Assembly (NCBI GenBank): GCA_947488905.1
Contig: CANLBJ010000002.1
Coordinates: 186,001-250,000, forward strand
DNA length: 64,000 bases
Reading direction: 5' to 3'
Source of the DNA: Ulvibacter algarum
GTDB taxonomy: Bacteria > Bacteroidota > Bacteroidia > Flavobacteriales > Flavobacteriaceae
The notes under the pieces are model-generated. The model saw nothing but the letters and a program-made list of their open reading frames with translations. It was not told the origin of the DNA and ran no database searches. The position numbers were made by a program, and so were the translations under genes. Below are positions 41,776-46,769 of the stretch, one piece after another. Position 1 is the first letter of the stretch. Every line of letters begins with the position of its first letter.

Positions 41776-42834
41776 ATGAACGATAGTACGTATGATTATG
41801 TAGTAATTGGTGGTGCCCAAGCAGGTTTGTCTATGGCATTTCATTTAAAAAAAATGAACAAAAACTTCTTAATCCTTGATGGCGGTAATGAAGTAGGAGG
41901 TTCTTGGTTAAGTAGATGGGATTCATTAAAACTTTTTACATCTACAGAATACAATCATTTACCAGGTTTAAAATTTGATGCCCCAAAAGGACATTACCCT
42001 TCAAAAATAGAAGTTGCTAATTATTTTAAAACATATGTTGCTAAGTTTGATCTTCCTGTAAGATTAAACACACTAATAACAGCTGTTAAAAAAACAGAAG
42101 AAGGTTTTCATGTAATTCATAAAGACGGTACGATAGCCGCTCAAAATGTGATTGTTGCCACGGGACCCTTTCATATACCATATACACCACCTTGCCATAC
42201 AAAGATCTCTAGCGATACTTTGCAAATGCACAGCAATAATTATAAAAGTACATCTCAACTACAAGACGGTGACGCGCTTGTAGTAGGAGGAGGAGATTCT
42301 GGATATCAAATTTTAAACGAAATCTCAAAAGACAGTTCTAGAACGGTTTATTTTTCTGGTGATACAAACGTGAGATCCATCCCACAACAAATTTTAGGTA
42401 AGACCATCTGGTGGTGGTTTACACTGGTAGGCTTTTTAAGCTACAGTAAGTATAGCTGGATAGGAAAGAGGCTTAATAGCTCTACACAACCAGTAATAGG
42501 TACAGATGTTAAAGAGATTTTGTCAAGAAAAAATGTGATACCCGTAGGGAGAACAAAAGACGCATTAAAAGAAACACTTTTTTTTGAATCACAGAATATT
42601 TCGACCATAAAAAATATAGTTTGGGCTACAGGATATCGCCCTAATTTTAAGTGGATAGAAGGCCTTGAGTTAGACGCAAACGGATACCCTAAAAACTATA
42701 GAGGTGTTAGTAATATTACGGGGCTTTACTTTATAGGTTTGCCCTGGATGCATACTCGCGGGTCTGCTACACTAGGTGGTGTGTCTAAGGATGCAAGTTA
42801 CTTAGCTAGTGAGATAAGTAAGGTTAATGATTAG
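41776..42834 (+). CDS. FAD/NAD(P)-dependent oxidoreductase (flavin monooxygenase-like)
   Basis: This 352-aa flavoprotein has two dinucleotide folds. The FAD motif is YVVIGGAQAGLSMAFHLKK at the N-terminus, where GGAQAG replaces GxGxxG, and the NADPH motif is LVVGGGDSGYQILNEI at about residue 170. VGGSWLSRWDSLKLFT and the C-terminal IVWATGYRPNF are typical of the YhiN/CzcO and FMO-like group. Homologues oxidise soft nucleophiles or accompany metal-efflux systems, but the substrate is unknown. A 21-base repeat with a GGCTTTCGCC core overlaps its stop codon. Confidence 0.83.
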   Translation: MNDSTYDYVVIGGAQAGLSMAFHLKKMNKNFLILDGGNEVGGSWLSRWDSLKLFTSTEYNHLPGLKFDAPKGHYPSKIEVANYFKTYVAKFDLPVRLNTLITAVKKTEEGFHVIHKDGTIAAQNVIVATGPFHIPYTPPCHTKISSDTLQMHSNNYKSTSQLQDGDALVVGGGDSGYQILNEISKDSSRTVYFSGDTNVRSIPQQILGKTIWWWFTLVGFLSYSKYSWIGKRLNSSTQPVIGTDVKEILSRKNVIPVGRTKDALKETLFFESQNISTIKNIVWATGYRPNFKWIEGLELDANGYPKNYRGVSNITGLYFIGLPWMHTRGSATLGGVSKDASYLASEISKVND

Positions 42835-42887: not shown

Positions 42888-43409
42888 TTAGCAGCAAACA
42901 GAACAGTTAGATTCTCCAAAAAGCTTGCCTTGTTTGTTAAATTCATATTTACAGCATTCATTAAATCTTTGCTTTAAAATTTCTTTTGCTCTTTTAACTC
43001 TTGCTTTAACGTTTTCAAGACTTATATTTAATTCTTCTGCAGTGTCTTTTTGTTTTTTTCCTTTAATGTAGATAAGCTCAATTACCTGTTTGTAAATTTT
43101 GGGTAGTTCATCAATAAACTTATCAAAACAGCATACATACTCATACTTTTGTAAAAGAGTCTCCTTATTTGTGTCAAGGTTATTTGAGTAAACAGATTCT
43201 TTATTAAAGTGATTAATTATCTCATTACGGGCAATTTGAAAAACCCATGCTTTTGCCTTTTCTTCTTTTTTAAGTTTAGATATATTTTTATGAATTTTCA
43301 AAAATGTATTTTGAAAAACATCATTTGTAACATCTCTGTCTTTTACTTTTTTTAGAATAAAAAAATATAGCTCTTCATTAAAGCTTTCCCAGATTTTTTG
43401 AGTTTGCAT
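42888..43409 (-). CDS. ECF RNA polymerase sigma factor, SigZ type, with Cys-rich tail
   Basis: The 173-aa protein has sigma region 2 (DVTNDVFQNTFLKIHKNISK; AWVFQIARNEIINHF) and region 4 (LPKIYKQVIELIYIKGKKQK; LNISLENVKARVKRAKEIL). It ends NECC ... NCSVCC and has a further CC in the linker (YVCCFDKF), giving at least seven Cys. This fits SigZ-type factors, in which Cys residues could sense metal or redox state. No anti-sigma gene is adjacent. I use the ATG at 43409; the frame's TTG is two codons upstream. A hairpin lies 15 bases ahead of the start. The gene follows the 37-aa Cys-rich gene by 48 bases. Confidence 0.88.
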   Translation of the reverse strand: MQTQKIWESFNEELYFFILKKVKDRDVTNDVFQNTFLKIHKNISKLKKEEKAKAWVFQIARNEIINHFNKESVYSNNLDTNKETLLQKYEYVCCFDKFIDELPKIYKQVIELIYIKGKKQKDTAEELNISLENVKARVKRAKEILKQRFNECCKYEFNKQGKLFGESNCSVCC

Positions 43410-43423
43410 AATCAATATTATTT

Positions 43424-43450
43424 AAGGGTTAGTTTAAACAACTAACCCTT
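43424..43450 (-). promoter_or_regulatory. Hairpin just upstream of the sigma factor start
   Basis: Arms 43424-43434 and 43440-43450 (AAGGGTTAGTT / AACTAACCCTT) are a perfect 11-bp stem with a five-base loop. On the minus strand it is followed by AAATAATATT, not a T run, and then by the ATG at 43409. It could be a processing or attenuation structure between the two genes. Confidence 0.6.
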
Positions 43451-43457
43451 ATTAATT

Positions 43458-43571
43458 TTAGCAACAAGAACATTCGCTGCATTCACATTTAGAACAAGAA
43501 CAATTCTTTTCTAAACAATTACCGCAATTGCAATTTTTACATTGGCAATTTGTGCATTTACAATTATTCAT
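43458..43571 (-). CDS. Metallothionein-like peptide, 37 aa with 14 Cys
   Basis: The frame from ATG 43571 to TAA 43458 encodes MNNCKCTNCQCKNCNCGNC followed by LEKNCSCSKCECSECSCC. Fourteen of 37 residues are Cys, arranged as repeated CxC and CxxC with Asn, Lys, Ser or Glu between and no aromatic residue. Such a composition cannot arise by chance in a genome this AT-rich. Peptides of this type bind Cu, Zn or Cd through thiolate clusters. The sequence does not look like the known bacterial SmtA or MymT families, so I call it metallothionein-like only. It lies upstream of a Cys-rich ECF sigma gene on the same strand, probably in one transcript. Confidence 0.85.
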   Translation of the reverse strand: MNNCKCTNCQCKNCNCGNCLEKNCSCSKCECSECSCC

Positions 43572-43844
43572 AATTTTAAAGATTTATAGTTCATTAAGGA
43601 GACTCAAAATCTTTTAAAAAGATACATTTTAATTCGTTTTTTTTAAATTAAGTGAATCACTAAGTTTCAATTTGCATTAAGAAGACCTTTAACCTTTAGT
43701 CTATGTTATAGCTAATACCTTTTAAAAAATTGAAGGTATTAATCTATTTAATCTAAAAACCCCAATCAAAAGATCAGGGTTCAAGTATTTAATATTTCCG
43801 AAGTTAATATACTGCTTACCGCTATTGCGATTGCTTACTATAGT
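43572..43844. other. Intergenic region between the Cys-rich gene and the TonB receptor
   Basis: These 273 bases contain a hairpin AATACCTT/AAGGTATT (43714-43721 with 43733-43740), the receptor terminator (43758-43781) and one TTTCCGAAG copy (43795-43803). Any promoter for the Cys-rich gene must be here; TATCTTTT in minus sense near 43615 is one base off the consensus. I see no other gene. Confidence 0.5.
43758..43781 (-). terminator. Probable terminator of the TonB receptor gene
   Basis: On the minus strand AACCCTGATC-TTTT-GATTGGGGTT forms an imperfect stem and is followed by TTTAG. It lies about 65 bases past the receptor stop. Confidence 0.6.
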
Positions 43845-46394: not shown

Positions 46395-46769
46395 TCATAA
46401 GATTTCTAAAACACGAGAAGGAGGTCTTCCTATCACAGCTTTATCGCCATTTACAACAATAGGGCGCTCCATTAGTTTAGGGTGTTCTATCATCGCATTT
46501 ATTACTTCTTTATCACTCAGTGATTTACCTTTGTACAGTTCTTTCCAGACAGCTTCATTTTTGCGCACAAGCTCTAAAGGGGTAATCCCTAATTTTTTTA
46601 TGATGGTAGAGAGTGTCTCAAAATTTAAAGGATTGTCAATATACTTAACAGTCTCAATTTGAGCTTCTTTTAAGGCCAAAGGTGTTAAGTGGCTTGCAAC
46701 GGTCTCTTCAAGTAAAAGAAGGCATTGACGAGATTTGCTACAGCGAGGATTGTGGTAGATGGTGATCAT
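46395..46769 (-). CDS. ArsC family (arsenate reductase-like) protein
   Basis: A 124-aa thioredoxin-fold protein of the glutaredoxin-coupled ArsC family. MITIYHNPRCSKSRQCL carries the catalytic Cys at residue 10, where arsenate is bound. The C-terminal LMERPIVVNGDKAVIGRPP supplies the conserved Arg residues and cis-Pro. No arsR, arsB or acr3 gene is adjacent, so arsenate reduction is not certain; Spx and YffB share the fold but differ at the active site. It lies upstream of the TonB receptor, which has its own promoter. Confidence 0.87.
   Translation of the reverse strand: MITIYHNPRCSKSRQCLLLLEETVASHLTPLALKEAQIETVKYIDNPLNFETLSTIIKKLGITPLELVRKNEAVWKELYKGKSLSDKEVINAMIEHPKLMERPIVVNGDKAVIGRPPSRVLEIL

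Follow-up and report, generated by a model that had tools for sequence, protein, structure and literature searches.

The window, a 64,000-nucleotide stretch of an Ulvibacter algarum contig, carries on its minus strand a compact cassette composed, in order, of an ECF-type promoter, a gene for a cysteine-rich peptide, a hairpin and a gene for a SigZ-like ECF sigma factor (Table 1). The sigma gene starts 48 nt past the peptide stop codon, and on its two sides the peptide gene is flanked by the sigma gene and a TonB-receptor-like gene. A sequence-only reading had described the peptide frame (MNNCKCTNCQCKNCNCGNCLEKNCSCSKCECSECSCC, minus strand 43571..43458) as complete from ATG to TAA, 37 amino acids long and free of aromatic residues, with cysteines at positions 4, 6, 9, 11, 14, 16, 19, 24, 26, 29, 31, 34, 36 and 37, and our re-reading agreed on every one of these points. 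Its description of the spacing as CxC/CxxC throughout was right about the array and wrong about its extent, because four residues separate C19 from C24 and C36 and C37 are adjacent. That reading was silent on the strand, and it likewise lacked the promoter, the hairpin, the sigma tail and the second peptide class described below. A gene on the plus strand was rejected because that strand of 43458-43571 contains one stop and one cysteine. A ferredoxin-like or zinc-finger protein was rejected by reading, given the CxC arrays and the absent hydrophobic core.

Table 1. Positions of the cassette features in the window
Feature	Position	Strand	Basis
ECF-type promoter: GTATCTTTT, 13-nt spacer, GTCTCC; ATG follows after 26 nt	43598..43625	-	pattern match
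Metallothionein-like peptide, 37 aa, 14 Cys (class A)	43458..43571	-	ORF reading, homologue cysteines and Cys codons
Hairpin between the two genes, 12-bp stem; may attenuate transcription or stabilise the RNA	43423..43451	-	MFE -16.6 kcal/mol, z -4.5
SigZ-like ECF sigma factor, 173 aa, ATG at 43409	42888..43409	-	matches to sigma-70 regions 2 and 4; closest family SigZ, under its cut-off
CC (C93-C94) in the sigma linker that joins regions 2 and 4	43128..43133	-	invariant in 10-sequence class-A alignment
Sigma Cys tail CC-x7-GxLxG-x3-CxxCC; candidate metal sensor	42891..42956	-	alignment, tail pattern, AlphaFold2

A short gene for a metallothionein-like peptide

The peptide ORF is almost certainly a real coding gene. 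When frames were read from their first ATG, it was the sole ORF in the window of at least 25 amino acids with at least 15% cysteine. Forty dinucleotide-preserving shuffles of the window yielded 25 ORFs at or above 15%, the richest with seven cysteines, and none at or above 25%, which places the peptide ORF far beyond chance. Across 47 distinct genes of the same class (class A, below), each of 37 codons, pN/pS was 0.22; pN was 0.019 at Cys codons versus 0.288 at the other codons, and only pN was used for Cys codons because pS was saturated there (>1). The Cys codons themselves alternate across these genes (TGT 396, TGC 261). If the ORF were instead a chance or non-coding run of Cys-like codons that is never translated, the absence of any match to the peptide in Pfam or NCBIfam would be expected; such a run is nonetheless hard to reconcile with the empty shuffles, with 14 cysteines that stay invariant despite TGT/TGC alternation, with the low pN/pS, or with a conserved promoter whose distance from the start codon hardly varies, and we consider it extremely improbable.

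The searches that returned nothing covered several libraries. None of 15 class-A peptides matched a Pfam family at E values up to 10, and the only Pfam family matched by 31 peptides of a second class (class B) was M20_dimer, in two of them (best E 0.21), in a search whose HMMER filters may drop weak matches for peptides as short as these. A class-A profile had no match among PDB sequences, and a tblastn search of plasmids with the 37 residues had none either, a result that could reflect low-complexity filtering or true absence and proves neither. With 37 residues, 14 cysteines in a CxC/CxxC array and no aromatics, the peptide has the sequence features of the broad metallothionein class, and the discovery of homologues with conserved Cys spacing supports the earlier assignment to that class. 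From the Cys pattern we infer metal binding, and we think it very likely that the peptide is a metal-binding metallothionein.

Two peptide classes and their pairing with a sigma factor gene

The homologues fall into two classes: class A, to which the window peptide belongs, has 14 cysteines in about 37 amino acids, and class B has 11 in about 33. Every one of the 14 cysteines is retained across 15 class-A peptides, and the same holds for the 11 cysteines across 31 class-B peptides; two further peptides, at L118 and L137, have 12 and 13. The peptide of G076, a genome of the window's genus, is identical to that of Patiriisocius marinus, which suggests that the window probably stems from Patiriisocius or a genus close to it.

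Searching 299 genomes of the window's family with the sigma protein (E <= 1e-25) identified 59 loci in 58 genomes, and a Cys-rich micro-ORF lies upstream of the sigma gene at 47 of the 59 (46 read intact). The remaining micro-ORF belongs to what looks like a decaying cassette (L053, genome G188), in which the class-B peptide is apparently frameshifted, the promoter is kept and the sigma match contains two stops. A scan of named genomes, which is limited to the best 80 sigma matches and is not a census, found the peptide at 54 of the 55 closest loci and at none of the 25 more distant sigmas. The lone miss was Zunongwangia pacifica (L133), and the closest loci include Roseivirga, Psychroflexus, Maribacter, Polaribacter, Salegentibacter, Aequorivita, Cellulophaga, Algoriphagus, Pedobacter, Kaistella and Brumimicrobium, with others besides. 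The family and named counts are not independent, since their genomes overlap (L014/L114 and L013/L104 have identical peptides).

To count peptides irrespective of the sigma gene, we used class-specific profiles, which recover their own members by construction. They replaced an insensitive profile from a mixed alignment that had detected the peptide in 4 of 246 genomes without recovering the window's own. The class-A profile matched 16 of the 299 family genomes, 15 of them those used to build it, and the class-B profile matched 47, so that a peptide of either class was present in 63. The sequence-only reading had proposed a homologue check that included the neighbouring sigma gene; run on this sample, it placed a sigma gene beside the peptide in 15 of the 16 class-A and 35 of the 47 class-B genomes (50 of 63 linked, 13 unlinked). 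The sole new class-A match, G223, has no sigma gene beside the peptide. Among the 47 class-B genomes, 32 were already known with a sigma gene (one decaying), three more have one (L212, L214 and L217), and 12 have none in the fetched stretch, seven of these in genomes smaller than 2.3 Mb, several of which are incomplete. The 13 genomes that lack an adjoining sigma gene indicate that the peptide can live under other control. A phylum sample of 395 genomes had class A in eight (sigma-linked in all but one, L231) and class B in four, each of them sigma-linked.

Some class-B sets that lack the sigma gene share like neighbours, which we name by reading: a carbonic anhydrase and a SulP-like gene at L213 and L224, an Lrp-like regulator at L215, L219 and L223, and an amidohydrolase-like gene at L216 and L225. 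At L219:53-1257 (genome G088) the class-B peptide also has close by two ORFs that we read as Cas2-like and Cas1-like.

The cassette may be mobile. Roseivirga spongicola (Cytophagales) and Psychroflexus tropicus (Flavobacteriales) have in common an 804-bp block of 97.8% identity (L085:3750-4552 and L086:842-1644) that runs from about 35 nt before the promoter to about 27 nt after the sigma gene. A near-identical, cassette-sized block in two orders is what a recent transfer of the cassette would leave, although the Psychroflexus copy lies on a short 6.6-kb contig that may be a contaminant. A further match of 152 bp (87.5%) abuts the block at L086 694-845 and lies about 1 kb downstream of it at L085:5481-5632; this repeated stretch is perhaps the end of an element.

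Beyond the pair itself, the surroundings vary. At the 55 named loci (the closest among the best 80 scan matches), the widest recurrent family of neighbours was present at five when ORFs of at least 100 amino acids were compared, and at four when ORFs of 40-130 amino acids within about 1 kb of the cassette were compared. Because flanking genes differ between loci, no recurring anti-sigma partner was seen. Could the peptide itself fill that role, as a small Zn- or Cu-loaded anti-sigma factor (or co-activator) that binds its own sigma factor and is mainly a regulator and not a bulk store? The lack of any other recurrent neighbour fit to be an anti-sigma at these 55 loci would agree with this, as would the way peptide class tracks sigma clade (below) and the placement of adjacent genes under one promoter, which is typical of sigma/anti-sigma pairs. 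On the other hand, 13 of the 63 peptide genomes have no adjoining sigma, the non-Cys positions are far more variable than the cysteines (pN 0.29 versus 0.02), unlike a specific protein-protein interface, and a hairpin after the peptide gene fits high peptide output. We therefore judge a mainly regulatory peptide improbable and continue to read it as a metallothionein.

Eight neighbours were hand-picked for Pfam from all flanking ORFs. One had no match, and metal genes among them comprised cation efflux at two loci and MerC, VIT1 and ArsR at one each, a selection from which no rate of metal neighbours is claimed; the ArsR-family gene (L088) is downstream of the sigma gene. In the window, no SmtB-type repressor was found beside the peptide gene. 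A flavin oxidoreductase gene (41776-42834, plus strand) is convergent to the sigma gene, with likeness below cut-off to monooxygenases of the ArsO family (195 bits, cut-off 425) and, more strongly, to the MSMEG_0569 family (209 bits, cut-off 498), and 46395-46769 (minus strand) encodes a glutaredoxin-type arsenate reductase, ArsC, that scores over its curated cut-off.

Promoter, hairpin and sigma factor tail

Upstream of class-A peptides the ECF-like motif is mostly GTATCYTTT, followed after a 13-nt spacer by mostly GTCTMC; upstream of class-B peptides it is mostly GCATCTTTT, with the same spacer and then mostly GTCT plus two of A, T or C. The distance from motif to ATG is 18-32 nt in most loci. 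A single regular expression with fixed spacing matched within 150 nt upstream at 101 of 101 peptide loci (L053 included). Among 1986 random control stretches from the same loci it matched 13, some of which may coincide with a true site, and among 2020 shuffled upstream regions it matched none. A scan for sigma-70 promoters gave three sites versus 5.7 in shuffles.

We also examined 16 sigma genes that have no peptide. Inspection by eye showed a similar motif (GCGTC..., spacer 12 or 13) immediately upstream of five of them, all SigZ-type (L047, L050, L058, L065 and, on a Hymenobacter plasmid, L181), of which the expression used for these genes matched only two; no such promoter precedes the other 11, including L020 and L133, whose tails are full. 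The five cases suggest that the sigma factor reads its own promoter, as expected of autoregulation, and, judged by sequence, that the peptide gene of the cassette sits between promoter and sigma gene. The genome that contains the window has a single exact match to the pattern, at 43625..43598 of the window, and likewise a single match to the reversed-pattern control. With up to one mismatch, seven class-A genomes contained the seven cassette sites and seven others, compared with six for the reversed control. Six of the extra sites are inside ORFs of more than 100 codons, and the seventh (L078) is inside a reverse ORF that we read as ribosomal protein S14. As the extra sites are no more than the reversed control gives, we claim no wider regulon. 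The operon and its promoter are well supported, and it is likely that the adjoining sigma factor transcribes the peptide gene from this ECF promoter.

Between the two genes, the window hairpin has the stem AAGGGTTAGTT / AACTAACCCTT at 43451..43423. Intergenic hairpins with z < -2 were found at 44 of 45 family loci (13 of 14 class A and 31 of 31 class B), a count that leaves aside L019, whose gap is 4 nt, and L053; L018 is the locus that has no hairpin. In a joint set of 100 loci, 94 had measurable gaps and 86 of these had hairpins at or below -8 kcal/mol. A T run follows the stem in only 50 of the 94, and the tail of the window hairpin is T-poor on the minus strand; the terminator scan gives this hairpin a score on the plus strand only. 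A search of the region against Rfam returned no family at the gathering threshold. The hairpin may be a partial terminator at some loci and a protector of the RNA end at others, and either would give more peptide than sigma factor.

The best family of the sigma factor is SigZ (TIGR02959, NF007215), at scores below the curated cut-offs (140.5 versus 168.65 bits and 146.5 versus 212 bits). In an alignment of ten class-A sigmas, nine of them beside a peptide and one (L020) not, the invariant cysteines were C93-C94 in the linker, C152-C153 at the end of region 4, C169 and C172; the linker has CC in class A and a single cysteine in class B. The window sigma and 46 of 58 family loci have a CC...GxLxG...CxxC tail. 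Tail and peptide occur together at 45 of these 58 loci, with one locus that has the tail only, one the peptide only and 11 neither; at the 80 named loci (the best 80 matches), the corresponding numbers are 51, 1, 3 and 25. L053 was left out of the tail table because its sigma reading is cut and its peptide apparently frameshifted; the tail pattern misses L134-L136 by one residue, and the L016 sigma is without the last CxxC.

AlphaFold2 (113 sequences; mean pLDDT 82.7) modelled the tail as a helix, the CC, a beta hairpin and the CxxC, at a low pTM of 0.45 and with low confidence for linker residues 74-90. By our reading the modelled tail resembles a zinc ribbon in plan. A structure search with the model matched, at E <= 0.001, only sigma factors among solved structures, nearly all of them ECF. 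In a tree of 110 sigma rows, rooted for drawing only, the partners of class-B peptides form one clade (99/89), and those of class-A peptides form another (100/100) that also holds the peptide-less L020 and L133. These two tailed sigmas reflect either loss of the peptide or early branching, a fork that the tree leaves unsettled. At Z. pacifica L133 the sigma gene lies 104 nt after a cation-efflux gene whose product ends in CCCD, and L020 has, by eye, no evident metal gene immediately before the sigma gene.

The 14 SigZ-type rows outside both clades differ in that no peptide lies upstream, as judged from annotated neighbours for three plasmid rows. Similar, partial tails are nevertheless found in peptide-less SigZ proteins of Vibrio and Hymenobacter plasmids, which have a CC...C tail like that of the window sigma, so the Cys tail is not specific to the peptide; a SigZ-type protein of Priestia retains only the CC. 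The Vibrio plasmid protein (L183:2501-3046) ends in CC...CNRC, and the tail may therefore be old in the SigZ family. The Hymenobacter plasmid sigma (L181:4940-5549) has a tail of the form CC...CGC...C and, immediately before its gene, a similar promoter, without a Cys peptide; it is about 2 kb from arsenic genes.

A proposed metal-responsive circuit and its relation to known systems

Considering the architecture of the sigma factor, the closest comparison is with CorE and CorE2 of Myxococcus xanthus (formerly ECF44, now ECF238). According to two papers (PMC3107203, PMC8999054), these also have a Cys-rich C-terminal extension and linker cysteines, and CorE, like the window sigma, has no linked anti-sigma. 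The second of these papers gives Cd and Zn as the metals of CorE2, calls the CxC of the linker essential, and suggests that two further Cys-rich groups, ECF287 and ECF288, work like CorE (PMC8999054). Two defining spacings differ: cysteines 181, 184, 192 and 194 of CorE form CxxC-x7-CxC, whereas the window sigma has CC-x15-CxxC, and the CorE linker has CxC in place of the CC (class A) or single C (class B) found here. The genes that CorE activates encode a multicopper oxidase and an ATPase for copper (PMC10141476), not a metallothionein. The 21 CorE-type sigmas listed in 2011 came from Proteobacteria, Acidobacteria, Verrucomicrobia and Nitrospira, and none from Bacteroidetes (PMC3107203). The window sigma thus resembles CorE in its architecture and departs from it in these two spacings.

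As a small Cys-rich peptide of metallothionein type, the peptide is also comparable to SmtA and to the BmtA-type proteins of Pseudomonas, and SmtA likewise has a regulator gene as its partner. The published account describes the Pseudomonas metallothionein as binding metal through nine cysteines and a histidine, and cyanobacterial SmtA as controlled by a divergent repressor, SmtB (PMC7387436); here there are 14 or 11 cysteines, the window peptide has no histidine and the partner is a sigma factor. The earlier statement that the peptide does not obviously match SmtA was borne out, in that no Pfam metallothionein matched and SmtA-type membership is not supported. For MymT, the peptide had no NCBIfam hit, in a library that may lack a MymT model. 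MymT and the CxC-type copper thioneins of fungi are short peptides rich in CxC and CxxC that differ from the window peptide in length, spacing and regulation.

We favour a model in which the cassette is a metallothionein operon that is switched on by a sigma factor whose own thiols sense metal, much as in CorE. The ECF promoter would drive an mRNA for a cysteine-only metallothionein, and the hairpin past the peptide gene would hold back or stabilise the transcript, with less of the downstream sigma factor made as a result. The sigma factor would recognise the promoter of its own cassette, giving positive autoregulation. Having no partner anti-sigma, it would itself be the sensor: thiols of the linker and of the C-terminal tail (CC...CxxC) would bind a metal, which we infer to be thiophilic, and the sigma factor would become active. 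The metallothionein would then capture the metal, the cell would be protected and the sigma factor would fall silent. Direct sensing of metal by the sigma factor through its own cysteines is the step of which we are least sure, and the balance tips only slightly towards it.

What if the peptide is a metallothionein, serving as a thiol or zinc store, and the sigma factor answers a different signal such as disulfide or oxidative stress? The tail and linker cysteines would in that case be there to make disulfides or to build a structural zinc site. Both CC and CxxC motifs are capable of redox chemistry, like tails occur in SigZ proteins that have no peptide, with Priestia keeping the CC alone, and a Pseudomonas fluorescens metallothionein is described as induced only in stationary phase and dispensable for metal resistance (PMC7387436). 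Against this, some of the flanking genes, among the hand-picked neighbours, are metal genes, and a metal-binding output beside a thiol sensor is the simpler reading. We consider a non-metal signal unlikely, if a more serious contender than the other alternatives weighed above, and retain the metal-sensing model.

A bolder version is possible but in our view doubtful: the cassette may be a mobile two-gene metal circuit with neither repressor nor anti-sigma, in which the sigma factor is the sensor, its own metallothionein operon is its only clear target, and the metallothionein is both output and off switch, stripping metal from the sigma factor. By extension, the wider SigZ family would consist of thiol- or metal-sensing sigma factors, an extension drawn from the several SigZ members examined in which a CC...C tail is retained and a related promoter precedes the sigma gene itself.

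According to a 2020 paper, only two bacterial metallothioneins, SmtA from a cyanobacterium and MymT from Mycobacterium, had been studied for their biological function (PMC7387436). No description of the peptide-sigma pair was recognised among the open-licence papers listed, judged by their titles and the openings of their abstracts. The cassette adds two further classes of Cys-only, metallothionein-like peptides in Bacteroidota, encoded by 33-37 codons and easily missed. As a metallothionein the peptide is ordinary; the novelty lies in the family it forms, in how it is spread in Bacteroidota and, most of all, in how it is regulated. Together, promoter, metal store, hairpin and sensor-sigma would make up a minimal circuit, and the pairing provides a concrete hypothesis for what SigZ-type sigma factors may do.
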